NCBI RefSeq assembly: GCF_037975245.1
Contig: NC_092582.1
Coordinates: forward strand, 9,513,501 to 9,577,500
Source of the DNA: Apostichopus japonicus
Taxonomy: Eukaryota; Echinodermata; Holothuroidea; Aspidochirotida; Stichopodidae
Reading direction: 5' to 3'
DNA: 64,000 nucleotides
In this document: in pieces, positions 10,101 to 60,326 of the stretch
How positions within the stretch are numbered: position 1 is the first letter of the stretch
Layout of the letters: each line of letters begins with the position of its first letter
Program-made: the position numbers and the translations under genes
The notes under the pieces: generated by a model
What the model saw: only the letters and a program-made list of their open reading frames with translations
The model's database searches: none
What the model was told of the DNA's origin: nothing

Positions 10101-13100
10101 CAAGCAACAAATTGCATCTCATTACTTTAGGTGCATAGCCATATTAAGGGTTAACAACAAGTTACTGGTGCATAGTTTTATACCTAAGTTCTGGCCAAGA
10201 ATGTAAGATTTGCTGGTGTTTAAGTGACCCATCCTAACAGTGGACGTTAAATTCATAGTCTGCTTCATTTATGCAAAGTAGGACTATCCTGAGGTAACTG
10301 TTACACCTAGAATGAAAATGTTATACAGTAAGTCTCAGCTAGGCCTGAGTTTATATACACCTGCCATGATGAGGATAAATGATAAGGAAAAGACTGTGGA
10401 GGTAAAAAGCTTCGAAAATGGCCTCCACATCCTAGGCTGACCCTTTGAAGCAAATCAGTTCCAGGAAAAATCATCTTATTAAGGATGTGGGTTGAAATAC
10501 TGAGATTTTCCCCCTTCTTTGTTTTTTTTGGTCGTCCATGGTAAATAATTATGCTCATAAAAGTTGTGTTTGATTTGATTCAATGTTCATTTGATTTCCT
10601 TCCTTTTCATTGTTTACAGGCTGGTATACCTGTGTAGCTACCAATGCACTTGGAAGTGCAAGAGAAAAATTTTACATATCTGTTCTTGGTGAGTATTTTA
10701 TCGTTTTAAATTCTGGATTAAACCTTTCAATCTCACCTATTCCAACCTGTAAAGGTTCAACAGTTTCGTTTTGTGGTTTTTTGGTAAAAAAGTTGGTAAT
10801 GGCAAAAAAGGCAAATCTTTTATAATATCAAGCATTTTATGAGGTAACTTTTATTTTTCCTACGATTCTTAAATTTTACTGGAGACAAAATGTTAAGGGT
10901 TGAATTTAAATTTAACTTAATATGTGGTACGACCCTGTGAATTAAAGTACATCACCTTGGAAAGGAAAAGATGAGGGTCAATTTCCATTTGCAAACTGTC
11001 TGAAAAATATGATTGAAAAGAGTAAACCTGGATTTTTTTATAATGAATGCACCAAGTAAATGTATTATTTAATTGATTGAGTATTGCAATTGACTTTGAG
11101 TAATTAGGTGCTATATAATATTGTTTTGATTGCTTGATGGAAGGACATTTATGTTCAGATGAATGTATCATAAATATGATGTGCTGAATGTCTGTTAACA
11201 AGACATTTGTGTTTGTGAAACTGAAAAACCAAGAGTTGAAATCCAGTCATTGACCGTAATCATACGTGTTACTCTCGGAATGTTAATCTATTTATCATAT
11301 TTGTAAAGTATCAGTAGGATCCTGTTTATCAGACACAGGTAATGACATTTAAATATTGAATTGTAAACAGGAGAAAGAAATTTGGCACTGTAGGATTCAA
11401 GCATAAACTCAGGTGTTCAAGTCCTCTCCGGTTGATCGATTTTTGCAATATCTTTCTGGGTCGTGCTCGTGAGAAGTGGTTGCAACTTACGACTGATGTG
11501 GAGCATGTCCTTGTTTTGCTTAATAAAACCAGCCAAACATAGACAGATTGTAAGAGACATACAGAATTACTTTTTTATTTCTTTTCTTTTAAAATACACA
11601 TGTAAGCTAATAATAAACAGATCTAGCAATGATCTCTATTTTGAGGTTGATCAATTTTTGCAATATCTTTCTCGGTCGTGCTCGTGAGAAGTTGTTGCAA
11701 CTTATGACTGATGTGGAGCATGTCCTTGTTTTGCTTAATAAAACCAGCCAAACATAGACAGATTGTAAGAGACATACAGAATTACTTTTTTATTTCTTTT
11801 CTTTTAAAATACACATGTAAGCTAATAATAACAGATCTACTGTAGCAATGATCTCTATTTTGAGGTTGATCAATTTTTGCAATATCTTTCTCGGTCGTTC
11901 TCGTGAGAAGTTGTTGCAACTTATGACTGATGTGGAGCACATCCTTGTTTTGCTTAAGAAAACCAGAAAAACATAGACAGATTGTAAAAGACGTACAGAA
12001 TTGATTTTTTTTTTTTTTTTTTTTAAATACACATGTAAGCTAATAATAAACAGATGTAGCAATGAAATTTTGAATGTGCGAAAAAATGCACAAATTAAAA
12101 GAAAATATAAGAAATTTTGCTGGAGAGCTTGCATTCCCTCCTTTCACTGACTTAAATCCTGTCCTAAACGAAGTGTATTCTAAGTTTCCTTGTTTACATT
12201 AGTATCTCAAAAACGGAAAATATGGATAAATCTAGGAACCTTGGGAAAGGCAGTGAATAGGAAGATGTTGACTTTTCTCTGTTTCTTGGTATTTTTATGA
12301 TCAGAATGGCAGAACCTATCACCCTTTCATACCCAATAGGTTCAGCCACTTGCGACCTTCAAGGATTCAATAAATATATCCACAGTTGTTGTTTTTAGAT
12401 TCTTAAGAGTGGATCAGATCAAAATATCATTAAGATATGAAATGATCATAGAAAATATCCAAAAATATTGACACAAGAATTTACTGTCAGCTGTTTAATG
12501 CATGAAAAGATCTTTATAGCTGAGCATGAAGCAGAATTAGGATCAGATTTACCATTATAGGGGAAGTAGGGGCATAAATCAGTGTTAGAAATTTACAAGA
12601 ATTTTGTTAAGTTTTTCTATTTTATTTTTTATTATTTTGGTTTGTGAAATGAAGTGATAAAAAAATGGTTATTCTGATGTTATGTTAGAATTAAAAAGTA
12701 GGCAGTTTTTTCCCCTTTTTTTGGGGTGGGAGGTGGGTAAAGTATTACTGGGTCCTTTTTTTGGGGTGGGAGGTGGGGTAAAGTATGACTGGGTCCTTTT
12801 TTTGGGGTGGGAGGTGGGGTAAAGTATGACTGGGTCCTTTTTTGGGGTGGGAGGTGGGGGAAGTATGACTGGTATGTTCTTTCACCTCTTTCCATGTTAT
12901 TTCATGACTGCGGAGCAACAATGAATGTCGCATCGAAACAAGATCTCAAAAAGTTACATTATATGGCTTTACAATACACCATGTTGCATTTGCTTTTACT
13001 CTTAGATATTCCACAAGTACCTGAAATTCTAGATGTTATAGCACTAACAGAGACTAGCCTTTTGGTCACATGGGATGCTGGAGCATATCCTGAAGATACG

Positions 13101-16100
13101 GAGACCTTTGACCTTGAGTACAGGATGAGGTTAGTCACAGTTTATGATAGTTAATATGTAGGTTAATACTAAGTTGTGAGTGTTCATATTATCTTATGTT
13201 ATCTTACTATGAGAGTAATTTATGCGTATGTAATAAGTGATAAAATAAAAACTACCAGGCATGGAAGGCATCCAATAAATTATCAACATGATATAGAGAC
13301 ATACTTATTTGGATGCTACATTATCACAGTCAATAGCAAACATACTGTAAACATACCAAGATTTAATGTTCAAACTTTATATATTCTCTACATGTATCTT
13401 TTTGCAAACCGTTAGCCTAGAAATGTAGTGGAAGTTTGTATATTTTGTATATATATTTGTTTCATCACAATTTACAGTGTGACGGGAAGTCTCCTATAAA
13501 GCCTGCAAGGCTTAACAAAGTAGGAGACTCCCCAAAAAGAAAAAAGAAAGAAAAAACTTAAGAATAGAAAAAGAAAAGTTAATAGTAGCATCTACAGTGA
13601 TGAAATAATCGAATTGACTCTACTTGAAATTAATAATGTTAATAAGCAATCCTAACAATCTTTATAATGATCTTAATCGCAAACACACACAAGAATAAAT
13701 CCATCAATAGTGAGAAATAATTACAGTTTGGAGATTCCTTTTGAATACAGAGTAAGAAGGCTTATTCTTAACATTATCCTGGAGATTATTCCACGTTTTT
13801 ATAGCACGAATACGAGGGTTAAAAGAACTTAAAGTACTTCGTTGGGATAAAACATGGGCGTTATTACAATGGCGTGTTTGATGGTTGTGGATTAGTCTAT
13901 TACTATATATAAAATCTTTAAAAGCCTCGGGTAGCAATCCATTCCATGCTTTATATGCAAATGTTGCAAGCTGGACTCTTATAATATCATTTAGTTTTAA
14001 TAAATTTAATCTTTTGTATAATGGGGTAGTATGATCACGTGGTGCAGCATGTGATATATGGCGGATAGCTCTCTTCTGGAGGACACATAGGTGATTAAGA
14101 TTTGTAGAATAGGTTCCTGACCAAATAGTCGTGCAATAAGTTAATTGGGGTAAAATCAGAGTTATATAGAGTGTTCTGAGTATATTTGGAGGTAAATAAT
14201 GTTTTAATTTGCATATAATACCAGTGTTTCTAGCCACTCTGTTACAGACTGCTGATATGTGATCACGCCACGAAAGTTTATTGTCTATGTGTACACCCAA
14301 GAACTTAGTAGTGTTAACCCGATTAATAATTTTATCATTCATGGTAATATTGTGATCCCATCTGAATGAGTGACTAGCATTAAACACCATATAATTAGTT
14401 TTCTCTATATTAAGAGATAATTTGTTTGCTGCAAACCAGCTGGAAAATTTAGTTAGTTCAGTAGAAACAGTTTTATGTGATGAGAGTAGAGTTTGGGAAT
14501 CGAAGAAAATATTTGTGTCGTCGGCAAATAATATTGTTTTAGCAATAAAGATATAGGGCGGTAATTCTCAAAATGACTGGGGTCTCCTTTTTTAAAGATT
14601 GGTTTTACTTTTGCTATTTTAAGCTTATCCGGAAAAATGCCGGTGTTAAAAGAAATATTGCAGAGATGAGTTAAAGGCTTTACTCCTCAGTTCATTCTCC
14701 TCTCATCCCCAACTGTATTTTATTCATCTTACTTTAATTCAACTTTAATATATCTGTAGCACAGAGGTAGTAATAGACTTGTATATTACTGTACATTTAT
14801 AAAACAATACAGTACTAATATTGTGATGATCTAGCATATGATAGGATACAATACATTAAAATACAATACATTACAATACAATACAGTATATAACAATACA
14901 CTACAATACATTAATATACATTACACTACAATACTATCCAAAACAATATAATACAAAACATTACAATACAATACCATACATTACAATATAATTTAATACA
15001 TTACAATACTATACAATACAGTACAATATAATACATTACAATACTATACAATACAATATAATACATTACAATACTATACAATACCATACATTACAATATA
15101 ATTTAATACATTACAATACTATCCAATACAATGTAATACAATACATTACAATACTATACTATACAATACAATACAATATAATACATTAGAATACTATACA
15201 ATACAATATAATACATTACATTACAATACTATACAATACCATACATTACAATATAATTTAATACATTACAATACTATCCAATACAATGTAATGCAATACA
15301 TTACAATACTATACAATACAGTACAATATAATACATTACAATACTATGCAATACAATACAGTACAATATAATACATTACAATACTATACTATCCAATACA
15401 ATACAATTCAGTACAATATAATATAATACATTACATTACAATACTATCCAATACAATGCCATACATTACAATATTATACAATACAGTACAATATAATACA
15501 GTACATTACAGAGCAATACAGTACATTACAATACATTACATTGCATTACAATACTTTACAATACATGAAATGTTTGATTAAAGAGTCAAGGAAAATGTAA
15601 ACAAGTTTGTATGAACAAGACCGTAAGATAAACGTATTATTTTATTTTTTATGATTATTTTCACCACAATATGCTACTTTCTTTTTTCTTCTTTTTTTGG
15701 GGCCAACCTAGTATTAAAATGTCAAGGAAACTGTTTTATTAAGGTTTATCCTTGCAGATGCCCTTTGCATTCATGAGTAAGCAGAACTGGAGAAAACCAT
15801 CAGCTATGTGTTTGTCGATTGTAACGCATAGCATCATTGCAAATGTTTTGATTAGTTTTTATCATTGGATGAAATGAAAACAAGGCCAGCTTTCTGATGG
15901 ATTTACCATCTGGTTTCAAAGAAATCTGTTCCTTGGTGACTTTCATGCTTGATTGATAAAGGATTCCATTTTATTTGGTTGAAATAACCAAAAAAGTGTT
16001 TCTTGAATATGATACAAAAGATGATGCTTGTGTCATGGTCAAAAGTATCAAGACAAGATTGAAAGTTATTTATAGGTAAAGTGAAATGGTTATAATGGGA

Positions 16101-19100
16101 CAAACAATAGAGGGCGCAATCATATATCAGTGCTATCTAGTTCCACAAAACAGCCGTTGCTATGGCTTTTATCACCATCAACATGGAATCACCAGCAGAA
16201 GTGTAGTGGTACCAGTAGTTGATCACCATTAATTTATTTCTAATTACAGAGTCGAACAAACTTAATGGATCTTGCAAGTTCTGTAAGATAAAACAAGAAA
16301 GAAAGATGATTGAACTGTTTCATGAAAAGAAAGAAAAACATATCAGAGAAATGATTTTACAAGATAGCTTCAAGATAGCTCCTGTCAAATAATCTGTTGC
16401 ACAACTGTAATAATTAATCTGTTATCTTGTCGTGAATTGCTAAGCAAATCTAATGATTGACCAATTTGCTACGCAAGTCCAAAAGTACGTAGCAGTTTCT
16501 GTACAGAAAACGATGGCGTTTGAGGTATATTATGACTGCGAAAATTGAGAAATTATTCCCTGCGAAATTTGTTCCCAGCTCCAAGTGACTGCCAAATGGG
16601 CAAACATGTTAATGAGTAAATGATTATCGTATGAATGCATAACCTAACGATTCCATCTGAATTTTTACCAATGAACAAAGTTTCAAATAGAACCAGGTTT
16701 ATTTTGCATGGTCGAACGTGGAAATGTAGCGAAGATATTGCTAGACAAACAAAGGTATAGCTTTTTCATTTTCATAATATTCTAGTTTTGAAGACATTGT
16801 TATATGACGTCTTTCTCCCCTCCATAGCGGAGATTCCTGGAGGGTCGCTGAAAGCAACATTCCCAATATCGTTGAGATCGGTAGTTTGGTCATCGAAGGA
16901 CTCACAGAGAATAGAGAGTACCGTATAAGAGTTCGAGCACACAACAGACTAGGGAGCTCTCCACCCAGTAGTCACTATGTTGCATATACTCCATCTGTGT
17001 CAGGTCAGTTTAGTATTTGGTATTTATAGTCCATTAGTTAAGAGACTTGTATGCTCTTAGCCAAGCATGCACTTTGTAGCTTAGACCCCATCTGTGTCAG
17101 GTCAGTTTAGTAGTTTGTATTTATAGTCCATTGTTAAGAGACTAGGAAGGTCTCCACCCAGCAGTCACTATGTTGCATATACTCCATCTGTGTCAGGTCA
17201 GTTTAGTATTTGGTATTTATAGTCCATTAGTTAAGAGACTTGTATGCTCTTAGCCAAGCATGCACTTTGTAGCTTAGTTCCCATCTGTGTCAGGTCAGTT
17301 TAGTAGTTTGTATTTATAGTCCATTGTTAAGAGACTAGGAAGGTCTCCACCCAGCAGTCGCTATGTTGCATATACTCCATCTGTGTCAGGTCAGTTTAGT
17401 ATTTGGTATTTATAGTCCATTAGTTAAGAGACTTGTATGCTCTTAGCCAAGCATGCACTTTGTAGCTTAGACCCCATCTGTGTCAGGTCAGTTTAGTAGT
17501 TTGTATTTATAGTCCATTGTTAAGAGACTAGGAAGGTCTCCACCCAGCAGTCACTATGTTGCATATACTCCATCTGTGTCAGGTCAGTTTAGTATTTGGT
17601 ATTTATAGTCCATTAGTTAAGAGACTTGTATGCTCTTAGCCAAGCATGCACTTTGTAGCTTAGTTCCCATCTGTGTCAGGTCAGTTTAGTAGTTTGTATT
17701 TATAGTCCATTGTTAAGAGACTAGGAAGGTCTCCACCCAGCAGTCGCTATGTTGCATATACTCCATCTGTGTCAGGTCAGTTTAGTATTTGGTATTTATA
17801 GTCCATTAGTTAAGAGACTTGTATGCTCTTAGCCAAGCATGCACTTTGTAGCTTAGACCCCATCTGTGTCAGGTCAGTTTAGTAGTTTGTATTTATAGTC
17901 CATTGTTAAGAGTATAGGAAGGTCTCCACCCAGCAGTCACTATGTTGCATATACTCCATCTGTGTCAGGTCAGTTTAGTATTTGGTATTTATAGTCCATT
18001 AGTTAAGAGACTTGTATGCTCTTAGCCAAGCATGCACTTTGTAGCTTAGACCCCATCTCTGTCAGGTCAGTTTAGTAGTTTGTATTTATAGTCCATTGTT
18101 AAGAGACTAGGAAGGTCTCCACCCAGCAGTCACTATGTTGCATATACTCCATCTGTGTCAGGTCAGTTTAGTATTTGGTATTTATAGTCCATTAGTTAAG
18201 AGACTTGTATGCTCTTAGCCAAGCATGCACTTTGTAGCTTAGTTCCCATCTGTGTCAGGTCAGTTTAGTAGTTTGTATTTATAGTCCATTGTTAAGAGAC
18301 TAGGAAGGTCTCCACCCAGCAGTCACTATGTTGCATATACTCCATCTGTGTCAGGTCAGTTTAGTATTTGGTATTTATAGTCCATTAGTTAAGAGACTTG
18401 TATGCTCTTAGCCAAGCATGCACTTTGTAGCTTAGACCCCATCTGTGTCAGGTCAGTTTAGTAGTTTGTATTTATAGTCCATTGTTAAGAGACTAGGAAG
18501 GTCTCCACCCAGCAGTCACTATGTTGCATATACTCCATCTGTGTCAGGTCAGTTTAGTATTTGGTATTTATAGTCCATTAGTTAAGAGACTTGTATGCTC
18601 TTAGCCAAGCATGCACTTTGTAGCTTAGTCCCCATCTGTGTCAGGTCAGTTTAGTGTAATGGCCATGGGTGAAGTGGCAAAGAATATATTGTTTCCAAAC
18701 CATGCTATTGGCCAAGCATAGAGGAAGGAACTTTCTCCTAGAGTACATATTTCCCAGAGTCTCTCATATGGCTATTGTGTGCTTTACCCCAGAGAACCTG
18801 GGTTCCATGTTTAAGGTTTTGCCTCCTCTCTCCTTCCTTTTAGTTATAATTGTATGTACCTGCAGCTTGCAGACAATGAGGTATGCCAACGGTGACCATT
18901 TTACTTTGAATTCAGATTGTCAATTTATGATACATGTGATGCTCATGGCTACTGTAAGGTGCGAGACTGGTGACCCAGGCATTGCCACTTGGAAATAATA
19001 AAAAGAAGAGTCTGGCTTTTGGTGCATCTATTAGTATATACTCAATGTATTTGAAGATACTCAACTGTATGCGAGGTGCACTCTGTGAATAATGCTAATG

Positions 19101-22100
19101 AGATGTGTGAAGAAACATAAATGATGTAACTTGATCACTTTAAAGCATAAACTCTACTTGTGATCATACTACATTCTATTCACAGGGCCATCTGCCCCTA
19201 GACGTCTGAAAATCCTCTCCTTCAATGCCACCACTGTTCAGTTGGAGTGGGAGATACCAGAGAGGAGGAGCAGTCCCATCGAAGTCTACTTCATCGATTA
19301 CTACAAAATCAGAGACAATTGTGAGTACAGGCGCATAGCGAAGGGGGGGGGGGGAGCGAAGGGGGCGACCACCCCCCCACCTTGAGCAATTTTTTTTTGT
19401 ATATGTTTTTATGATATCGCTAGTAATTTCAAAATAGAAAATGGTTAGATGCAACTTACAAGGCCTGGGAAGTGCCATTTCCAGCGATCAGGGAGGCATT
19501 TTTGGCCAAAATTTTCTCATACGCTCGCGCCAGCTCAGCGCTACGCTTAGATAGTTTCCAGTGCAGAATCTACGACTCTAATAGTTTGCCAACAGGTTCG
19601 CCCCACCCTTTGGTAAATTCCTCACTACGCGCCTGTGTGAGTAAACCATTATCAGGTGGTGACGTAATCCAAAAGTGTGTACAACTTTTTAAAAGGTATT
19701 ATGTCCAGCAAGGAATGGAAGAGTGAAAGAGCTCATCCTGTCAATTCAGTTGACATTGCATCTGTTCAGGGAATAATTAATGTGTAAAAGTAAGTTGGCC
19801 TGACATTTTGATCCTAGCAGGATCTTCTTCAGAGACTAAGTTTTTAGTCTCTGAAGAAGATCCTGCTAGGATCGAATGTCAGGCCAACTTACTTTTGCAC
19901 ATTCTCTTACACAGGCTCTCTAGTAGATAAGCAGTTTGCTAACAGTTTTATTTTATTCATTTTTATAGGGAATAAATAATAACGTATTGCATCTCAAAAT
20001 GCTATTCGAAACGGTCAAGGTAATGGTCAAGTGTGAAGATGTATAACAGTTTTCTACACAGAAACCATAGTATTTTTATATGAGACAAAACTATAGCACT
20101 CATTTTTCCCTGCTGTTTCCCCCCCCCCCCCTTATTAATGAAAATGCAAATCTTTTCCCATAAACCTATGAATCATGAAGAGAAATTCCTGTAAGTTTTT
20201 GAGTCACTGCGATAAATAAGTACAGCAATCTTGATATACTTCTTGCTGTTGTTCCATCAATTCTAATGCCTCACATCGATCTTTTACAGTCCTTCAAGTT
20301 CATTGATCAGAGCCAGTATATTTTTATTTATTTTAAAACCATCAACAGGTCAGTTTAGTTGGTAATATCTTGATTTGTATATTTTTCTTATTTTTAGCCT
20401 CGAGGACGATAGAAGTACCAGGCGAAGGTAGATACACGATAGATCACGTCGTTGACAACCTTCAACCGAACTCGCTCTACGCCTTTCAAGTCTGCGGAGC
20501 TACTTTTTCATCCGAAGGTGAAATCCAGCTTGGAAACTGTTCCTACAACGTACATCAGGTCACTGCGACTGCAGGTTAGAGAGAGAGATAATATTTTAAT
20601 TGATATTTGACAAAATTTATGGTGACTTTTTAAAAGAAATTAAACTTCTACCTATATGGGTTTCATCCCCTCTGGTGCCATATACACTTTTTTTGGGAAA
20701 ATGTATTATGAATTTTATTGGTATGGGTTACATTTTAAGGCTTTTTCCTTGTCATCAGAGGGACACTCAGGCCTTACATATTGGTTGTCTGAACAGGAGA
20801 TGTGGTTATTCTGAAAAATATAGCAAAAAAACAAAGACCAGTATGTACACGGTGAAGAAAGAACACCAGATTTTGGGTTGATACCAAGTTATCATTTTAC
20901 CTATTTGGGGGGTGGGGTGGGGTGGGGTGTGGGTAGGGGGTGTATTCAGGTACAAGTCAATATGAATTTGATGTAAAGAACTAGTTGTCCGCGGGACAAC
21001 TTCCACAGCCGAGTTTGGTTAATCGTCCAAACATACATTTGGTCGTCTCCGAAGACCGGACTATACCATTAAAAATTTACACTGTAGTACGACAGAGGTT
21101 GTAAACTTTAAAGTGACTCTCTTGAGTTTCGAAACAAAATATGAACACTTAGCCACTGTTCTCTCTGCCAACTCGGCTCACAGGTTCAAAAAGAGTTTGA
21201 AAGATTCTGGAAATAGTCCAAACTGTTTGATGGCTGCATTATTACCAGGTACTCTCTCTGGAATAAAATTAACCACAGTTTTAGGGTCTTTCTCTTTATT
21301 TTTTTAAAAGTTTTATGTTTACATATTTCTTGATAGCTCCTGATGCAGCCCCAACAGATCTCCAGTTGACTGTAGAATCATCAACAGTAATAACAGTTTC
21401 TTGGTCGGTGAGTAGATCGTTGTGAATATATTTACCCAAACTCTCTTATCATGGTTTATTTACAGACACTTTCCAAAAGTGTTTTCTTAATATTTAAACA
21501 TAAGAATAAAAAATATTTCTCAAGAAGACCAGGACCGGGAGCCTGAATTTTGGTAACGTTTTTCTGACAATGCATTATCTTGTTTGTTTATGCCTAAATT
21601 TTTATTCTCAGTCGCTGAAGACATATCAAATAATTATTTTATGTCCATCCATCAGTCGGAACCAACTTAACTTTTCCAGGAAACGGTAGAATTTGAATAA
21701 CTATGATGTCCGCATTTATTCTCATACATCGATATCAAACAGTCCTTATACTTCAAAATAATAGTTTGAAACTATTCCCTAAAATATTACTAGAATCTTC
21801 GTTTCATTCTCTTCTTTTTTCTCAGCCTCTGCCAGAAGAAGTTCAAAATGGAGAAATCCTTGGATACAACGTGACATATATGTCTTTAACATCTAAGGAA
21901 GTTAAATCAGTTGCTACGTCGGAGATGACGACATCGATCGCTAACCTTGATCCTTGGACTGAGTATGACATCTACGTAGAGGCTTACAATGCAGATGGAC
22001 TTAGCCCTCCCAGTGTTACTGCTACAGCCAGAACTAAAGTTGCAGGTACACTCACACTTTCTTGATTAACATTTTGTTACAAGCCATCAACTTTTTCAAA

Positions 22101-25100
22101 ATTTGTCACCTGACATCCACCGTATCCCCAGATACATAATTATTAATATACACACTAGAATCAACAGAGAAACCCTTTTCTCTTTTATATCAAAAGAATT
22201 TAAAGGGTTAATGCCTCTTGTCCCATGGTGCTATTGTTAACTACAAGCTTTTAAAATATTCTTGTTAACAAATTTCAGCATTGAAAATTTTAGTGCTAGA
22301 AAAGAAATTTGTGAAGAGAAAAAAAAAAGCAAAATAAATAGAAATACCTCAGAGTTGTTTCTTATTTTGGCAAGCATCATCGTAAGCAGATAAAGGTACA
22401 TTAACAGTCATCAGTATTGCCCCTAAATATTCTGATGTTTACTCATGCAACCAAAATCAACAAACATTCTACTGTTACACTCAAGAGGTTTTTCCCCTCA
22501 GTGAGACAGAGGTTTCTTTCCCTCAGTAAGACATTAATACTCATTGATATCTGGAAATAACATGGATGGTCGCAACCAACAGGAAAACAGTTTGTCAATT
22601 TGCAGCAATTCTTTTCTACTGAATGCTGAACATGTTGAGCTAATTACTATTGCTGACGATTAAAAAATTGTTGGTCAAAATGTATAAAGAAAAGGCTCTT
22701 AAATAATTTACAAAGTGTTTTCCTCCCCCCCCCCCTTGTCATCAATCAAATACTGAAGTGCATTCTTTTCAGCTATGACAATATGTAATCTACCTTGTTT
22801 CTTTTCTGTTTAGCACCATCGGGAGTTCCAACTATCGCTTCAATTGTCGCCGTAAATGAAACTGCTCTGATACTCTCGTGGGAGGTAAGCGGGTTTTAGA
22901 TTGACTTTCTTAATTGCAAGAAGCAACATGTAATGATTCCTACAACATTAGTACAGTGCTGTCAGTGATAACATTAACATGCTCCTTATCTTTCTGGTGT
23001 AAATCGAGATATTTTCACGTAGATAATAATCTGGTGATGATTTTCAGAATATTGCCGAGGACAGTCGTAATGGCCCTATAGATGGTTATATCGTGACGTC
23101 GAGGGAAACAGGATTCACAAATATCACCGATCTAGATGTTGCCAGTCCTCTGACAAATGCAACAATAGTTGGTAGGTCAAATGTTAATTTTTTTTTTCCC
23201 TTTTATATATATGTTCTTTTACATTTTCATAATTGAAGAAGAAAACAAGAAAGTGACATTTTATTTTTTTTAAATTGTGTTCAAAATAAATCAAACTGTG
23301 GTGAAGAGTTATGGTTACAGCAGATCTTGTTTAAAGTTAATGGCTCTTTGGAAGTCCCCCTCACCTCAAATTATGGAAAGGAATTAGCATATATTTCGCA
23401 TGAAGTACGTTATTGTAAGTGCCATAGGTAGGCCCTCAATAGTTTAATATGCTCCACAGTCAACCATGCGACATGTATCTTGACTAATACTCATCAGGTT
23501 AAATCGTTGACTAGACACAAAAAAATACGATAAAATCTTTGCTTCCTTATGTATGACATCTTGTCATTTTCTTTGTGTAATAGTTTTTATTGGTGATTAA
23601 ACTAGCCAGTTGCAATTCAGTATTGTCATCACTATTTTAATTATCTCTCTGTGTGCAATTTATGATTTTCTTCCTCTTAGCAAGAGGTAGGTGATAACTC
23701 ATTTAGTCTCTCAGTCAACAGTTTTAATACAAGAGAAACTTCATTCCCAATATCTTATACGCAATGTAAGCTGTGGTTGTCCTATATATATTTCAAGGTG
23801 TGACTGAAGCACTTTGAGAATTTCGCTTTTGGCTTTGACATAGCAAAACTATCCATAACAGTATTTAGCAAAACTATCCATAACAGTATTTAATAAGTTT
23901 CTCAAGTTAACAAAGGAGCATCAATGGAAAGTTGACTGGAAACTGGAAATAGCAAAGAATTTTTTTTGGGAGGGGGGGTGCTCAGGGTTGCAAAAGACCT
24001 GTGCTCTACCAACTGAGGTATCCAACTTGCCCGTTATCGGTGGCGAAACTGTAGATCATTCTGTCAACCAGTGACGATTTCATCACCGCGTCTTATTTGG
24101 GTAAAGAGGCAGCCAGCTTCTTTTTTTGTCACAGGACAGTGAAGAATGTTTTAATCTGACTGATTTAATCCTCAGGTTTGAAGGTGAGCACAGAGTATGA
24201 AGTTACTGTGTCAGCGTATAATTTAGAAGAAGGCTCCCCCCTGAACGGACCTAGGTCTTCTATAAATGCTGCCACAGCTGATGGAGGTAGGTCTGAGGTT
24301 AAAATGCTGGTATGTGGTACCACTTCATACATGCTCGAGACAAGAAGAGGATTAAGAGTTTCCTTAAATATTGTGCAAATATATTTTGCGTAGACTGTGA
24401 TATTCTTGTAATTAAGGTTAATGTTGCAGCCCGAAATGATTTTGTTAGACTTGCCAAAAATATACTTGCCTGGGAAGATCATCCTCTACATTGTGAACTG
24501 ACCTCTCTGTGCAATAATACAAAATACAATTTAAGAAATCCTCAGCTCACTCCAAGTTTTAGAATCACACTTTTTAGAAATTCCTTCATTTACAGAGCTG
24601 CACTTTTTACCCAAGAAAGAGTTTTAGAACCCTTGTTATAATCATCTGAAGTATTTTAATATTCAATGGTTTTCTTTAGTATACTTTTTTCTTCCTCAAA
24701 TTTGACCTCAAACTAATCATTGTAATTATATGTTTCTTTTATGTACTTCTTATCCTATTTATAAATTTATATTTATACTGGAATAAATAAAAAATAAAAT
24801 GAAAATAGCCCATAGGCATAGGGTACTGCTCTAAACGGTAATTTCGTTAGAGGCAGTCGAGTGAGAGGCAGACGAGGGTAGAAACAAATATCATATAGAC
24901 TGAGATAAGTGACGGCAGAGTTAGGCCAATTCCTTACAAACATATTGACTCTCAGTAAATTTTTCACTTCATTGCATTCAATTGTGTTTATATCAACGAG
25001 ATATTAATAAATGTAGTTGACTTTATATAACTCGGGGAATACGAAAACAATCAAATTCAGTATGAGATGTTACTTTCTTAGAGTTTACATATAACATGTG

Positions 25101-28100
25101 ATTTAAATACTGCAGTTTTTCAAAGGAACATTCCATCTGTTCAAATGTTTGGGAAGGAGGTCGGGGAGGAAGGGGGTTAGGGTTTTCTTTCAAGTTCTAT
25201 TTGTCCTCAAAACTGTTGATTGGAGAAACAAAATACTCTGTAGTAATCTTCCAATCTATAAAAAATTTAGTATCCTTCATCTTAATGATCAGATTAGTGT
25301 ATAAAGTAAAATTAAACTGCAAACTTGATAGGCAATATATTGTCAACATAATAGCCATGAATATATGTTTATACCATATTCCTTACATTAAGGTTTTCAC
25401 ATGGTTCTAAGAGTGGGAAGAAATGATATCTATAACAAAATTAATCCTAAATTTTGTCATAAGTGTTTTTAGAGATTAATCTGTACAAGTTTGACAGGAC
25501 AGGAAGTCGAGGTTGAAAACAGTTAATGTTCTTCCATAAATTTCAGTGCCTGGAATGATCACAGATTTGACGATTGGAGATATTGGCCCAACCTTTGCCC
25601 TTTTAAAGTGGTCGGCTCCACTAGAAGAAAGAGGAGATATACTAGGGTATAGGATACAGTATACTGTCATCGAAACCTTAAATTCAGGAAAAGGTAAGGA
25701 AACTAAATTCTTAATCATGTAACACTAGATTTATGAAAGTGAAAAAATGGGGTGGAAGGGATTTTCCTTGCATGTCTTGTTGTGTCGATTTTCAGAGCTT
25801 CCTCGAATTGAATAATAACAGGTGAAATGAGGTTTTTAACATCCTCCTGGTGTTATGATCATCATATTGTCTCTTGATTAATCAAAAAAAAGATGAAGCA
25901 TGGACATTTTGTGAGGTTAAATGATATAATTAATTGTTGGCTTTCACCCATAATGCTATTTTAGAGGAAGGGGAAAGTGTAATGCGCCATCGTTTGCCTC
26001 ATTCTTGTTGCCGAAAAAACTTGTTGTTGAATCACAGCAGAACTTGTGAGATTTTACTGACTGTACATCTTCAAATCATTGTTGTTGAAATAATTGTGTA
26101 TAATCATGATTGTTGTTGAAATATCATGTGTGTATGGTCATGAATCTTAAACAATGTAAGTGGAACTTGATCACTTCTAACAAAGAACTGACTGATTATA
26201 TTTGATGCTTCTAGTATGTAAATATAGCATTGTTGTTAAGTTTCCAATTCTTTTGAGGTAAAAGCAATTTGAAAAACTTTTAACTGCACTATTTTGGAAA
26301 AGAAGCAGAGTTGTGTGTGTTTACAAACCAGTATCTTTTTTTTTGAGTTTGTGGGATAGGAAGTGAAGTGTTTACTTATAAAAGACTACCAGCTGCTTAA
26401 TTTGATTTTAAATGGCTTTTCATATCATCCTGTGGTTTGTAATTGGATCACCAAAATAGATGTATATCTAGAGAAACCCTGTGGTGCAGTTTCCATGGTG
26501 GACAGCTTTTGTGGAGTATAATAGCTTCCCTGGGGGACATGTTAAGGCAAATTATTTGACCCAGTTTATTATGTTAGGTAATAATTAATTGTATCCAATC
26601 ATGGAGATATAAAAGGTAGTTTATTCTTAATCTGAGAGCTCACAACTTTTCATTATCATGTCAAGATTAAATATACTTAGTCAATAACAAAGATAGGGGA
26701 GAAAAATCAGGCAAAGATTCTATCCGCTGAAAATGCTGGAGCAAGGAAGATGTTCGTTAGTTTCAAACGGAGCTTGAAATCAATCTGCTGCACACATAGT
26801 ATAGCAGCATCCTGTTAACTTCCTGTGAATCATATCACACATATATACTGCACACAACAACACAACACAGATCTCCACGAGAAGACTCGAAGGGAAGTAG
26901 TCTCAACGAGCAACAACTCTACGCACGTCGTCACGGTCTTCAGCAAGGAAACCCAATATAACATTACAGGACTGACTTCAGAGACAAACTACTCGTTGAC
27001 CATCATGGCTCAGACGAGCGCTGGATTCGGAGAGGCTCTCTCTTACTTCTTCTCCACAGGTTAGTTAGTCAAATAAGTTTCATTTTAGGGAAAGATTTAT
27101 TTATGATTTCCCAGTTAGCTGTTCTGTTGTTGATTAATAACTTTCCATTTGTATATATATATATGTTGTGGTTCAAGGAAGTAATGATAATGAATTCAGT
27201 ATGTATACAGAACAGTACTATATACATATTCAGAGTTTCATTATTTATATTGTCACATTGGAAAGGGGTGGGGGTTGGAAAGTCACACTCTACGTATGTT
27301 TGAAGTAGACTAATGTCTATTATGAATTTTAAGTTTTAAGATTGTACATGCAATAAAGTGCCTAGGTACTGTGATCAATGCATACTGTACCACTCTCTTT
27401 GATGCACTCTGAATCTGTCAAAGGAAAGTTTGGATGGACCGTTTGTGCCGAATATAATGTAAAAGAGAAAGGACGGTTGAAATATGAAGATCTTAAGGAT
27501 GCCCACTAGCCTATCCCGAAACCAAATTTGGCCCACTGATTTCATATCAAGTGGAGCGGTTTTTAATGTGTAGAGAATAGAACCACAATACACCCCATAC
27601 GTGCATAACGTTCTGCTACGTAAAATGTACGAAACTTTAGGAAAATCACATACTCTTCTCCGATCACTTTGCATATTTTCACAATTTTGCATTCCCGCAG
27701 AGGAGAGTTACAATTCTGTTGATGACTCTACATCTACAAATGGAACAGATTCTACTCCAGAGCCTGGAGAACTAGCCAAGGAAGACTGGACACTTCTGGG
27801 GCTTCCATTGTAAGTCACTCAACATATTCGATTAATAATATAACAGATAATATTCTAGAAAGGTCTACAAATGGACACATTAAATCGATGTTATACAGCA
27901 TGAAGGTTGCTATTGCCAATTAATCTTTGACTAAAGAAACCTATTGTTTAAAGGATTATTTGACTAAAAAAAATTGAAGAAATTTTGTTGTTGACTAAAA
28001 CATCTGACTAAAGAAAATTATCCTTTGACTAAAATCATTCTTTGACTAAATTGATACTGTGAACTAAAGTAGTTAGAAGGATGGACTAAAAAATGTCCCC

Positions 28101-39190: not shown

Positions 39191-39459
39191 ACATGACGCA
39201 TTTCGGGAAGGGGGCGACCGCCCCACCCCCCCCCCCCCCACCCGAGCAAATTTTCTTTATGACATCGCTAGTAATTTCAAAATATACAATGCTTAGATGC
39301 AACTTACAAGGCCTGGAAAGTGTCATTTCCAGCGATCTGGGAGGCATTTTCGGCCAAAATTTTTAATGTACGCTTCGCGCCAACTCATGGTGGCGCTTCG
39401 CTTAGATATTTTGCCTACAGGCTTCGCCCCTCCCTTGGCAATTACTCGCAACACGCCTG
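39190..39459. mobile_element. hAT-like MITE remnant related to 19328-19635
   Basis: It shares the core module (atcgctagtaatttcaaaat through cgcttagatag) and the right end (acgcctg) with the MITE at 19328-19635. The left terminus is degraded and no target duplication is visible. Confidence 0.8.
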
Positions 39460-40006: not shown

Positions 40007-40692
40007 TGTGTAGTGTTCGGTTTCGATATACCTGATATTGGAAATATCTGCTATTTTTCGTTTCCTTCAACCAAGTTTTATAATAGCCATTATAAGAGGT
40101 TTTAATATTTCTACACCAATAAATTAACTGTGTCTGAATTTTCGAAAATTTTCTCACCAACATTCTTCATCATACTTTCCTCTACTCGTGCAATTTTGAC
40201 CTGTCTGTTAGGGGTTCAAGGAGGTTTTTCTATATTGGTTGTCAATAGATTGAATTTTGTGCAACATTATGGGTATGTTTTCAAGTGATTTTATTCACGA
40301 GAAATGTGAATTTTCAAATTCTCAATAAATAATGGGCTTAAAACCTTAAAAAGTGGGGCTTTCGGATATTGTGGGCCGTGACGTAGAACCACTTACAAAA
40401 GCAATGATCCATAGGACATGCAATGAGGTCGAACATGGTGTGTGACTGGTGACAATCTTCAAAAAGGTTATGGATGGAAAAAAAAACTTTGGGGAAATAC
40501 TTGGTTATCAGACAAAAGTGTACATCTGGTTGGTCATTTTCAAGCCCGATAAGTGCCATTTCCGGTGATCTGGGGGGTATCAAAGCCAGAAATTTTCTTG
40601 TACGCTCCGCGCCAACCGATGGTGGCGCTCCGCTTAGATAGTACTTCGCGCCCCCCGGGTTAGAAAATCCTGGATACGCGCCTGTGTATAAG

Positions 40693-42052: not shown

Positions 42053-42705
42053 CAAGGGCGGCGGAACCGGGGGGGCACAGGGGGCACGTGCCCCCCCACT
42101 TTTCCTCAGGTTAAAAATGTGCCCTTTTTCTACATAAAAATTGAGGTGTCTCAAGTTAGCAAGAGGCTAGGGAGCCACAATGAACACTCGGGAAGGGCCG
42201 TTTCCGGCCATCTGAGGGGTTTGTAAAACCAAAAATTTTCTTGTACGCTCCGCGCCAACCGATGGTGGCGCTCCGCTCAGATAGTCGTGCATACAACTTT
42301 GCAAATCCAGGCTAAGCCCGTGACTTTCAATGAATTTCTGTGGGTCAAACTCAAAGCTATTTCGAATGGAAAAAATTTGTTAAGAAATTAACAAGAAATA
42401 AACTCTAATTCGGAAGATTCCTACATTAGCAATTAGCATGATTTCGCCTCATTTTGTCTCAAAAGAAAACTTGTTCCTTGTTTCCCAATTTGCACATTGG
42501 ATATTGCAGTGCTAGTATGCATATTTTCCTTGAGAGGGGGGGGGGGGGGGGGCGTTGATGGAGTGATGTGTGTACACAAATAAGATAATACAATAAGAGT
42601 TGTAAAGGGTACTAAATATAAGGCTGCATCAGTGCAATCGAATTTCTGCAAAGTGCCCTTTGATGTCGGTGCCCCCCCAGATTAAAAGTGCTTCCGCCGC
42701 CCCTG
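42053..42705. mobile_element. 653-bp hAT-like element with intact target duplication
   Basis: It starts caagggcggcggaa and ends with the inverse of caggggcggcggaa, flanked by the perfect 8-bp duplication actgaaac (42045-42052 and 42706-42713). The internal module at 42186-42285 is shared with other hAT-like elements in the window although the termini differ. A G run lies at 42535-42552. It is non-autonomous. Confidence 0.93.
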
Positions 42706-45039: not shown

Positions 45040-48000
45040 GTATGTTACCATTCATTCTTAAGTGATACACTAGTTGGCGTCTTCAATTCTATATTCTTCC
45101 TTTGGGGAGGACCTCCAGACACCCTCCCTTACATGGGAGTTTGTTCCAACGACCGCATGGCCGCACCCCTCCTTTATAAAATCTCCGTTAATTAAAGCAC
45201 CTTTCTTCTTGTATACTATACCATCCAACTAACAAGATACCAGGTACAATGGTCAGTGGACAGGTACGGTAAATGACTTTTATTGATTATCTTTCAGGGT
45301 TGCTTGCTCTTATTGGCATTCTCGTAGGTTGTGCGTTGATCTTCATCTCCACCCGACGTACCTCCAAACATCACACCCTCCTCTCTGCGTTACATCATTT
45401 TATCGTAAAGTATCACCGCCTTTACGTAGGTTCCCGGATGTTGAAGAAGTTCAGAGCTGCTTGCAAAAATCCAAGAGAGGCCCAGGAACTTCTCTTACAG
45501 AAGATCATCAAGACAAACAAAAACACGGACTACGGACATCAGTTTCGACTTGGTGAAATCCATTCCTTGGAAGATCTTCGTCAAAAACACCCGATTACTG
45601 ATTACGACCATTACAGGCGATTTATTATTCGATTGTCTAAAGGTGAAAAGGATGTCTTGACCGCGGAAAAGGTGTCTCGTCTTATATTGACGAGTGGGAC
45701 CACTGGGACAGGCAAAATGATCCCACAAGACGAAAATATTGTTGACAATTTTTTAATTCTGCTAGGTGCCTTTCAACATGAAATGTTTCCCGACATGCAG
45801 CCAATGCAGTCATTTTTTAGACTGCATGTCAACGCAGAGATCAAACAAAGTGAGTGTGGTATAACCAAAGCTTCGGCAACAGCTTTGGAGAAGCATATGA
45901 TGAAAGGTAAGGTCGATTATGCAACTCCCAGTGATGGTTTCCTGATTGATACAGTGTACGAAGCCTTTTACGTACATCTCTTATTTGCTTTGAGAGAAGA
46001 ACAGTTGGGGTCGGCTTTCATAACTTTTGCTAGCATTTTGATTGACCTCATGAAATTTTTGGAAACAAATTGGCCAAAATTAGTTCATGATCTTTCGAAA
46101 GGCACGCTTCACCAGGACCTAAAACTATCCCCTCAAATGAGGGCGACTTTGACGAGGGCCCTGGGATCTGGGGACCATGAAAGGGCAATGAAGGTCAAAG
46201 AAGAATGCGAGAAAGGATTCGATGGTATCATTAAGAGACTTTGGCCAGATGTTCAAGTCATTTCTGCTATTGATAACATCGGTATTCGAAGTTACATGAA
46301 GTCGAGCTTTGGTAAAGGTAAGTCTATCCTTACTTCAAGTATATTATTCTTACTTCAAATTTCTTTGATTCAAAATTAAAAGAAACAAACCCAGACATCA
46401 TCTTTAATTTAAAATGACAGAGATTTGGAGGAAGAACAACTACCCTAAGCAGCTAAGATAAATCCTCTTCTTTGTGGGAGATAAACTAGTTTAAAAGTCT
46501 CGTCCGAGTGATGTCATTTTGTAAATGTATACACGGAGATTTGGAAGAGGACAGTGACCTATACTCAAGATCATTGTTAAGTAGATTTTAAGTACATATG
46601 TATATGAGACAGGTAAGAGAGTATCTGATATCCTCGACTTTCTCCTTGCTCTTTTTATACTTTCAAGGTAGAATGTTAAATGTCTTGATACCGATACCAA
46701 TACCACCATTAGGTTGTGTTAAGAGGCTCAGTATTTTAGATTCAGCATTTATAAAAGCAATCTCCATGACAAAAAAATTAACATTTATAATAAATAAAGG
46801 ACAACATAAGACAAAATGAAGCACATGTTGCTCGATGAAATGTCCTCTTCTAAACTTGATCAATTTAGAATGAGTTAGGTAGATTTAAGTGCATATGTAT
46901 ATATGAGACAGGTAAGAGAGGAATGAAATAAATATCGGCATTCATAAAAAACTAAATAAATCATCCAGATAAGAGACACTTTTAAATGCCAACTAGCTCT
47001 TTTGCGGAGAGTCCGTGGCATGCAGCTCCATGTCGAGACTCCACTACCAACATGACTGTCATCACCAGCAGGACCGTAATGCAGGAACTGTTGGAGGGAC
47101 TCAAACAATTTATGGAGGGGCGCAATACTCGTGTCCTAGAAGTTTCGCACATATGACGAAGGCGCATTTGGGAGGGGGCTGAGCAGTCTGCACGGCGGAG
47201 GCCAGGCAGGGGAAACCTATTGTCCCCGCCACGGGCCTGGGTCACTTGTTGATGATGATGCATGACCAATGTCACAACACAACATTAATGAGATTAATGC
47301 CAGGCTATACCGAACTTGGCAGTTCCTTGTTACACAACATCAAATATTTCATGTTGCTCCTTTCACAGGTATTGAAATATACTCAGCTATGTATATCTCT
47401 TCAGAGGCGTTTATGGGACTTAACCTGTGGCCTTTCGAAGATGGAACGTCGGAGTACGCCCTCAATTTGACAGAAAATGTGTTCGAATTCATCAAAGAGG
47501 AAGACATGTACTAAGTAGTTCTATTATTTCATTCAGATTAATTTAATCGCAGTGTCAAACGCTAGAAGGCTCACAAAATGTGATGATGTTGGGGCAATAC
47601 ATCACTGTTCTGACAAACGAGTGGTCACCTAATTATTCTTGCGGACCACAATGAGTTTTGTACCCGTAGATGACAGCTCAACAGAGGTAGAAATGGATGT
47701 TGATATTCTCCGTTGGAAGCAAGCTGTAGTGTGACTCCACAACCAAACCAAACCGTGTTGTCCCAAACGGTCCTCACAAACGAAACCTATTAATAAATTC
47801 TCCTTCAACATATGTATCAGGTTTGGGAGAGTTTCATTTATTTAATTAGAGATCAACTTCTTTTGATGCAACCCTCTCTGACGTAACTTCGCATACAGAC
47901 CTTCTGTCTGCCTTATTAGGCGATTTCTCAGTTTATCGGGCAGATCCATATGTGGCTCTTATGGGATATTAATGGATGGAGACCTTTGTGAGCAATATGA

Positions 48001-55979: not shown

Positions 55980-56968
55980 AACGACGTCTTGCGACGTTCG
56001 TTAGCCTACAAGATTGTTAGTATGGATTCTGCGACAGTGGAGAAATTAAAGGAGTGTAGCATCAGAGTTGCCGACAGTTCATATGAAGATACTGAACTTT
56101 TGTATGCTATCATGGATGATGTTGGTGAAGATGGAATTGAAAGTTGTGTGAAATCTTCAGGATGCTGGATAATCACATTAAAAGCATAGGAACAAGCTGA
56201 TCTTATTTTGGACAGTGGACTCCTCATCAATGGGAATCAGTGTCATGTTACTGGTGTCAACAGAACGTTCCTAACTGTTAGTGTTTTTGGAGTTCCTTCA
56301 TTCATACAGGACGAAGATCTAACAGGAAAACTTTGTGAGTATGGGTGTAAATAAGAGGCGAATGGAAATGAAAGACCTTCCCCAGATTCCCAAATATCGA
56401 GAACGGAATACGATATGTTCGAGTCACTCCCCGGTTCGAGTCACTCCCAGATTAATGTATGTCGTCCAGTTACAGAGTTGTTGACAATTAACAATTCATA
56501 ATCATGGACGTTAAATATGAATGTGAGAGACTGACTTCGGTCAGCTTGCGGCTTTGATAAGCCAATTAGGCTTCTTCGCGAGTTCCTGCTTGCAGGAGGA
56601 TCTAATATACATATACATATACATATGTACAGTTAGAACTACATGAAGAACACAAGAGCTTGCCTTACGCAATTAGAATTAACGGGATTAATATGAACTT
56701 AAAGCACAATGGTCAAACTAAAGTATGCAACTTGTGTTTGGAAAGCGATCATTTCAGGAGAAACTGTCCTAAACACAAATGTAAAGTTTGCGATGTCCAA
56801 GGGCACCGGGAAGCTAATTGCCCAAAGTTCAGATGCTTTAAATGCCAAGAACTTGGACATAAAAGCTTTAATTGTCCTGAGACGTTTGAGTATCGCCATG
56901 ACAACACAGACGCTGGCTCGACCCTAGATACACATGAAACGAAACACAATATCAGTCTGAGGGATTAG
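55980..56968 (+). pseudogene. LINE ORF1 (CCHC zinc-knuckle protein), broken
   Basis: In LINEs of this kind, ORF1 proteins bind the element's RNA. Three Cys-x2-Cys-x4-His-x4-Cys knuckles are visible in the intact 3' part: CNLCLESDHFRRNC, CKVCDVQGHREANC and CFKCQELGHKSFNC. The 5' part (about 55980-56410) has an early stop near 56187 and a frame change. A SINE at 56419-56622 splits the frame, with the two sides matching in phase around the 6-bp duplication atatgt. Confidence 0.82.
56419..56622 (+). mobile_element. SINE inserted in LINE ORF1
   Basis: It matches the SINE body at 42809-43046, starting within the B box and ending in an (atacat)n tail. A 6-bp duplication atatgt flanks it (56413-56418 and 56623-56628). 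It therefore arrived after the LINE. Confidence 0.85.
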
Positions 56969-57383
56969 TCACTGGGTCAGTTGAACAGGACGATCACGCT
57001 ATTCAAGAAGCTAACGATGCCAGGGCACAGAAATCCGAACAAAACACAGATTCAACAGCAAAGAAGAACAATAACGCGACCTCCAGACACCCGAGTAATC
57101 CTAACCAGGAATCAAAGAAAACCCAACAACAACACAAGACGACATTGCCAACACATAGAGAAGAACAACGGAGAACACAACCCGAGACTGGATCTCAGCG
57201 GATGGAGGGGGCAAGCACACAAAGGGGAATCATCCAACCCCACAAAAGGCAAATATCCCTAGACGAAGACGGCTTTCAAACTATCAGACTAAAGAAGAAA
57301 ACATTTATTCCTAATCTCAGCAGAGCGAGAAATGTCAGAACAAAGGATTCTTCAGCCGAACTTATGCAAAGATGATGGCGTTC

Positions 57384-60326
57384 ATGTTATACATTTATTT
57401 ATTTATAGCGATGCAAGCTGCAAAATACCTTGAAACAGGGGAGGAAGCTATCGCATGCAATTACTACGATATTGATTCACACAACAAGATGTCTAGCGGA
57501 CACATATTGTCTTTATTCCACCATAATAGTCGAAGCCTTAACAAAAACTTAGACGACATTACTACATTCATGTCTCTATTGAAGGACGATTTCTCTGTCA
57601 TTGGATTTACCGAAACCTGGCTTACTGCAGATATATCCCCCCTAATCCATATCAATAACTATACGCTTGTTGAAAGGCATCGTCCCGAAAGGAGAGGTAG
57701 CGGTGTTTGTTTATTTGTTAACAACGATTTAAATTTCAAACTCAGAAACGATATAAGCATTTTCAATGATTCTATTGAGTCATTGTTCATAGAGGTTGAC
57801 ATAACATCAGCAAAGAAAAATTATACCATAGGCGTAATTTATAGGCCTCCAAAAAGTTCACTGCATATTTTTCTGACACACGTAAACGAAATTTTAACCC
57901 AACTCTCGAATGAACGACATAGTGCGTACATTATGGGTGATTATACTATTGATCTTGCTGACAATATTAAATCTGCTGACTTTTTAAACTTACTATATGC
58001 CAGTGGATTTTTTCCTACTATTACCAAACCTACCCGTTTGGGTTGCACGTCTGCAACTCTTTTAGATAATGTTATAACCAATGATGACTGCAAACTAATA
58101 ACTGGTATCTTTGTAACCGATCTCTGTGACCATTATCCAATATTTCTCCAAACTGCCATACACAAAAGTAGGCAAGGGGCCCTATGTATGTAAGGAACTA
58201 CTGCAAAACAAATGTACAGAATTTCTTCTCAACAATCCGAGATGCTTCTTGGGAAAATGTTTCATCCCAAACTGATGCAAACATTGCCTATTCTATTTTT
58301 TATAACAATTTCAATGCCATATATAATCAATGCTTTCCAGAGCAATGCGTCACCAAATCTAAGAGACGTCGAAAGAGACACCCGTGGATTAGTGCAGGTA
58401 TTCTAGTTTCTATCAAAAGAAAAGATAAGCTATTTAAAAGACATATTAAGAACCCGTCTTGTGTAAATAAAACTATTTATTCTCAATATCGCAATAAGCT
58501 CAATCATGTAATCAAATTTTCTAGAAAATTATATTTCAACCACAAATTTTATAATGCGAGGAGTTACCCTAAAGGCACATGGGATACCATTAACCAACTA
58601 CTCCATAAAGGTCGTAAACAATCATCGTATCCCTCTTCTTTCAATGATGGTGACAAAGAGATTAACACCGACCATGATATTGCTAATAAATTTAATGACT
58701 TTTTCGTCAATCTGGGGCCATCACTAGCAAGTAAAACCAACCACAAACGTAAATCACAGGAATCTGTGAACATTGAGTTAACACTCATTCCATGTTTTCT
58801 CATCCTGTCAGTGAGGAGGAGTTGTTAAAAACAGCCTACTCTTGCATGAAACCCGATAAAGAAGCTGGATACGATGATTCTAAGCCTTGTATTGTAAGAC
58901 AAGTTATCCTATTTATTACCAAACCATTAACCCATATTTGCAATTTGTCGTTCAATACCGGTATTTTTCCTGATATGCTAAAAATTGCCAAGATCATCCC
59001 TGTCTTTAAGAAAGGGGATTCAGAAAACTTTGAAAATTATCGGCCTATATCACTATTATCATGTTTTTCTAAAATAGTTGAAAGGCTTATGTATAATCGT
59101 ATTTTTAACTTTATTTCAAAATATAACATTTTATGCCAGGAACAGTATGGATTCCTGAACACTCCACTGAGCTAGCACTAGCTGATGCCATTGACAATTT
59201 GTATAGTAATCTTGACAAAAATAGTACCTGTGTCGGGGTTTTCCTGGACCTCTCAAAGGCCTTTGACACAATAGACCACACAATTCTGCTTAATAAATTA
59301 CACCGTTACGGCATAAGAGGAACCCCCCTAAATTGGATCGACAGTTACTTAGCAAACCGCTACCAATATACATCCTACAAAAATGCTCATTCCCAACCGG
59401 AGAGAATTCAATGTGGTGTGCCACAAGGCTCTATACTTGGTCCATTGTTTTTTATCCTATATGTCAATGACATTACCAATGTTTCTGATAAAGTTAAAGT
59501 TGTTTTGTTTGCTGACGACACAAATATTTATTTCGTATCACAATCGAGAACTTTATCTCATATTGAAGTATCAACTGAATTAGACAAGTTCAGCGACTGG
59601 TTCGCTGACAACAAATTATCATTGAATACTGATAAAATAAACTATATAGTTTTTAATACTTCTAAAAAATTTACATGGAATGCTGATATTACTATGGGTG
59701 GTAAACGACTACAACAAGTCAATAGTACTAGATTTTTAGGCGTATATATAGATCATGAACTTAAATGGTGTGACCACATTACAACTGTCTGTAAAAAAGT
59801 TGCAAAAAACACCGGTTGTTTTAGCTAAGCTTAAGCAATATCTGCCACAACACATTTTAAAGATTCTCTATCAGACATTAATCCAGCCACATATTACGTA
59901 TTGTTGTAACATATGGTCTGGTACACCAATCTGAATCCCATTTGTATTACACAGAAGAGAGCAGTCCGCCATATAACACATGCCAAACCACGGGACCTCA
60001 CAAATCCTCTTTTTAAGCGTTCTAAGTTGTTAAAAACTGATGACATTATTAGGGTTAACCTTGCTGCATTTGCTTATAAGGCATGAAATGGACTGTTACC
60101 AAATGCTTTTAATGACTACTTAATATGTAACAGTGATATTCATCATTACAGTACCAGATTTTCAGGCAATGTACATTATAACAGGTATAATTCTACAATG
60201 GGGATGTTATCACTAAGGGCACGTACAATCAAAACATGGAATTCTGTAACAGACGACATTACAAATAAACCTTCTGCAAAATCATTCAGAAGAAACTTTA
60301 TTCAAAAAATTATTGCATCTTATTAA
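57384..60326 (+). pseudogene. LINE ORF2: endonuclease plus reverse transcriptase, frameshifted
   Basis: An apurinic-type endonuclease comes first (about 57510-58170): HHNSRSLNKNLDD, IGFTETWLT, GVIYRPPKSS, and ATLLDNVITND near the end. The expected GDxN motif reads GDYT (near 57940), a lost catalytic Asn. The linker lies in another frame (58184-58828). The reverse transcriptase has [40 protein letters not shown] and the FADD active site (about 59508). The frame changes near 58190, 58800, 59150 and 59820; the C-terminal part ends at 60324-60326. Confidence 0.9.

Follow-up and report, generated by a model that had tools for sequence, protein, structure and literature searches.

In the window, a 64,000-nucleotide stretch of Apostichopus japonicus DNA (contig NC_092582.1, 9513501–9577500), a non-autonomous, 308-bp hAT-like element (19328–19635, + strand) sits directly on the splice donor of exon 10 of a receptor-like gene, and the repeats that flank it show that the insertion duplicated this donor. 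We consider it very probable that a hAT-like transposon landed on the donor by chance and that the upstream copy is now the main donor in use. The octamer TGTGAGTA forms an exact 8/8 direct repeat on either side of the element (19320–19327 and 19636–19643, both + strand), with a probability of 1.5e-5 for such a match by chance at one fixed place, and the inverted ends of the element (CAGGCGCATAGC and ACTACGCGCCTG) adjoin both copies directly. These ends are imperfect, with 87% complementarity over 15 nt when the outer A/T pair of the duplications is included. The hAT superfamily is characterized by short inverted ends starting with CAG, as observed here, and the 8-bp target-site duplication likewise belongs to its features, so that the element and its relatives appear to be of hAT type. 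The original prediction had placed the exon 10 donor inside a duplicated octamer, with one donor at 19321 and another at 19637, and both positions agree with the end of exon 10 as we placed it and with the two copies of the duplication. RNA folding over the insertion region was not unusual (z -0.35).

The host is an Ig/FN3 receptor-like gene on the + strand, part of which lies inside the window. Twelve predicted exons (13006–27809), placed by eye with AG before and GT after each, form a single frame free of stops. Exon 10 (numbered as in the original prediction; 19186–19320, + strand, 135 nt, beginning and ending in phase 1) and exon 11 (20398–20574, + strand) supply the first and second halves of one Pfam fn3 domain (E 1.2e-11, residues 3–84), with the exon junction at residues 45–46. 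Pfam identified five fn3 stretches in the 12 exons and, in upstream exons, two Ig domains. The FN3 part was nearest to LAR-type phosphatases (1.1e-29), followed by contactins and Dscam, and the two upstream Ig domains were nearest to Roundabout 2 (2.5e-54), followed by contactin 2; the FN3 and Ig parts point to different families, and no single assignment is suggested by these similarities. An NCBIfam search of the gene gave no match, and three tail motifs looked for in it were not found. A putative membrane-spanning stretch was seen in the translation near 28865. In a genome-wide search for an element-free paralogue, 36 candidates were scored, and the 2 matches of exons 10 and 11 at E 0.001 were to themselves.

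The two donors of exon 10 differ on the exon side, reading ATT/GTGAGT at donor 1 (19321–19326, + strand) and TGT/GTGAGT at donor 2 (19637–19642, + strand), where TG is contributed by the element and T by the duplication. The upstream duplication copy begins with the final base of exon 10, so the native exon side stayed with donor 1 and the native intron side went to donor 2. Joining donor 1 to exon 11 yields the intact FN3 domain in an open frame, which bears out, for the predicted exons, the earlier statement that this donor keeps the normal protein. The intron so defined runs from 19321 to 20397. It had also been proposed that donor 2 would place the element in the mRNA; this is correct as to the element, but the exon would grow from 135 to 451 nt, by 316 nt rather than 308, since one copy of the duplication is carried along. 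As 316 is 1 mod 3, donor 2 would shift the frame, and its product would end at a TGA (19383–19385, + strand), which is in frame if donor 1 is skipped, after 21 added residues.

To compare the donors, we scored U1 pairing and a matrix built from the other 11 donors of the gene. Pairing energies were nearly equal, at -6.9 kcal/mol for donor 1 vs -7.1 kcal/mol for donor 2, which is marginally better. The matrix gave 4.25 for donor 1 and 2.69 for donor 2, a difference that is weak evidence for donor 1 because both fall below all 11 other donors, and 13 further GTs in 19186–20390 equal or exceed donor 2 in score. Seven of these GTs exceed donor 1, three of them inside the element (19444, 19596, and 19613). 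G runs near a donor can enhance splicing from that donor. Runs of 12 and 5 G lie within the element at 19343–19365 (+ strand) and begin 23 and 41 positions into the intron, counted from donor 1, while no G runs occur at positions 7–76 from donor 2; the element may thus even help donor 1.

A rule of order is available from a designed reporter library (PMC6783452), in which the first of two tandem donors was predominantly used when both were at consensus; the same paper mentions earlier conflicting evidence about donor order. The pair at exon 10 resembles that system in having two donors of the same core in a row, with order deciding, and differs from it in being natural and 316 nt apart, whereas the designed donors were closer together, the variable regions being 147–162 nt long. 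That both exon 10 donors are used to a relevant degree, a reading compatible with donor 1 as the main one, is possible but doubtful. Transcripts from donor 2 would then be decayed or would encode a truncated, anchorless ectodomain, and the output of the gene would be lowered or regulated. Donor 2 has the same GTGAGTA with U1 pairing at least as good, and the stop at 19383 is followed by nine or more further predicted exon junctions, a stop upstream of exon junctions being the usual trigger of nonsense-mediated decay. Its exon of 451 nt instead of 135 nt, the lower matrix score of its exon side, and the first-donor rule (PMC6783452) all speak against such use.

We also asked whether the element could have been exonized, with donor 1 spliced to an acceptor inside it and the new exon spliced from donor 2 to exon 11. 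One of the 23 AGs scored would serve, giving an exon start at 19539 with a score of 8.5, within the range of 4.5–14.5 of the gene's 12 acceptors, and the resulting 98-nt exon has no stop. We nevertheless regard this as very unlikely, given that 98 nt is 2 mod 3 and would shift the downstream frame, that the other 22 AGs score at most 3.8, and that the acceptor score was built from just 12 acceptors.

In the history we prefer, a non-autonomous hAT-like transposon would have inserted by cut-and-paste at an 8-bp staggered cut spanning the exon 10 donor, and gap repair would have copied the entire donor to either side of it. The upstream copy would have stayed attached to exon 10 and served as the main donor, and the element and the second donor would be spliced away with the intron, whose length would have risen from 761 to 1,077 nt. 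On this best reading, the insertion would have been tolerated because the upstream donor remained joined to its own exon. We infer the continued use of donor 1 from the intact downstream frame and the published first-donor rule (PMC6783452). The claim that the locus shows how such an insertion is tolerated therefore went further than the evidence, while the anatomy and the two-donor logic behind it held.

To place the element within its family, we searched the 671.6-Mb assembly, in which the terminus CAGGCGCRTAGC has 4,593 exact occurrences, vs 1 for the backward-read control. The search for relatives returned 2,338 first-look candidates, and the 40 most like the element were scored; among these best 40, 39 had 83–88% identity and 1 was the query itself. 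Both ends and an 8-bp duplication were present in 29 of the 39 fetched relatives at our score cut-off (at most 2 mismatches in the duplication), and the duplication was perfect in 19. Two of the perfect cases (L023 and L024) share an identical duplication at a distance of 8.4 kb on the same contig and may therefore represent a single insertion that was copied. The consensus and age estimate were based on the 29 relatives, with the 10 whose end or duplication was unclear omitted. These diverge from their own consensus by 4.3–8.3% (mean 6.4%), and the exon 10 element diverges from it by 7.0%, giving an age that is only rough, since the relatives were selected as nearest to this element. Intact duplication pairs are weak evidence, as 31–40% would be expected intact by chance at 5.6–7.0% divergence. 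The similarity of 7.0% to the mean suggests that this copy was part of the family's main burst and that the insertion is probably no recent allele; judged from divergence, it is probably fixed. If so, an empty allele may not turn up in other individuals.

A search for the transposase source through hAT dimerization-domain matches gave 633 candidates, of which 150 were scored. At none of the 15 scored loci that were examined did a pair of such ends (at most 2 mismatches) span the transposase. Three hAT transposase loci (L046, L053, and L054) each have one terminus-like site, CAGGCGCGGCG, that is related but different. Within the window, fragments related to the element were observed at 39256–39412, 40551–40642, and 42190–42285, with 87%, 74%, and 71% identity, respectively.

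For a family this large, a hit on a splice donor is to be expected by chance. GTGAGT was found 0–2 nt from the terminus at five genome sites, the exon 10 site included, and GTAAGT at one. These six donor hexamers compare with 6–7 expected from the 4,593 exact termini (6.0 by a dinucleotide model, 7.0 by the window's own frequencies), an expectation that is slightly low because the hexamer patterns used one terminus base less than the count of 4,593. A rough estimate of ~ 2 chance donor hits was obtained from ~ 200,000 introns (an assumed number) × 3 offsets / 671.6 Mb × ~ 2,300 copies. At three of the four other GTGAGT sites (L040, L042, and L043), stops occur in every frame of the 70 upstream codons, which leaves room for a short exon, and at a fourth (L041) one frame is open across the 70 upstream codons viewed. 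The duplications of the 29 copies showed no strong common sequence. Targeting of donors by the family is not supported, as the hexamer counts are at chance level. As far as tested, the donor was struck by chance, an event to be expected from a transposon family of this size.

Transposons that become introns, or supply their splice sites, are known from other systems. The maize Ds1 insertion in Adh1-Fm335 is said to have been found by Dennis and colleagues in 1988 to be spliced as an intron. Like Ds1, the element here is a non-autonomous hAT with an 8-bp duplication in a transcribed gene, and it would likewise be removed by splicing; Ds1 is reported to lie within the mRNA sequence and to be excised from it as an intron, whereas the exon 10 insertion copied a donor that belonged to its target. 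In some Introners, the target-site duplication provides the donor (Gozashti et al. 2022, PMC9860276). The exon 10 element shares with these Introners the inverted-end DNA transposon and a target duplication containing a splice donor, but where those form a new intron within an exon, it lengthened an existing intron and left a spare donor. That the family targets splice donors or creates introns in the manner of Introners could draw on this use of the target duplication as a 5' splice site (PMC9860276), yet we find it extremely unlikely: donor hexamers occur beside the termini at chance frequency, the 29 copies have no strong shared duplication sequence, and the element is not itself the intron, because the intron continues for 754 nt beyond the second duplication and ends at an ordinary acceptor. 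Searches of open-licence papers dealing with donor duplication, transposons, and exon boundaries turned up no instance of precisely this event.

A second and larger repetition of donors was found next door, at exon 9 (16828–17003), which ends CAG/GTCAGT. A tandem array at 16946–18655 begins inside this exon and can be read as 8.9 copies of a 193-bp unit or, from 16973, as 17.4 copies of 97 bp. TGTCAG/GTCAGT occurs 18 times in it at 96/97-nt steps, exon 9's own donor counted, and all 18 donors are identical from -6 to +6. Skipping the first leads to a stop after 8 further residues, so only the first of the 18 keeps the protein. In a genome search that skipped very common words, the 193-base unit matched only at its own place (n=10). 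The array is independent of the transposon, larger in scale, and more unusual than the exon 10 insertion, leaving adjacent exons 9 and 10 with 18 and 2 donors, respectively.

Other features of the window were recorded alongside. A long near-perfect palindrome at 19783–19905, seen by eye in the same intron as the element, is probably another small repeat, and a similar stretch seems to be present near 30860, judging from translations. An open frame of 368 aa at 45273–46379 resembles a GH3-type protein, and frames at 56606–59828 resemble, by eye, a non-LTR retrotransposon with a zinc knuckle, endonuclease, and reverse transcriptase.

The exon 10 insertion is a clean yet chance example of an already known type of event. 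It indicates that a gene need not be broken when a transposon lands precisely on one of its splice signals, because the 8-bp duplication keeps the signal on the exon side. A broader reading, in which the donor redundancy that arose independently at exons 9 and 10 has a common consequence, either an order-based choice that rescues the gene or a decay-coupled dimmer with truncated ectodomains, seems unlikely to us. If it were true, the locus would be a natural measurement of donor choice vs position. The exon 9 array and the exon 10 pair together would offer a test, within one transcript, of first-donor choice among near-identical donors.
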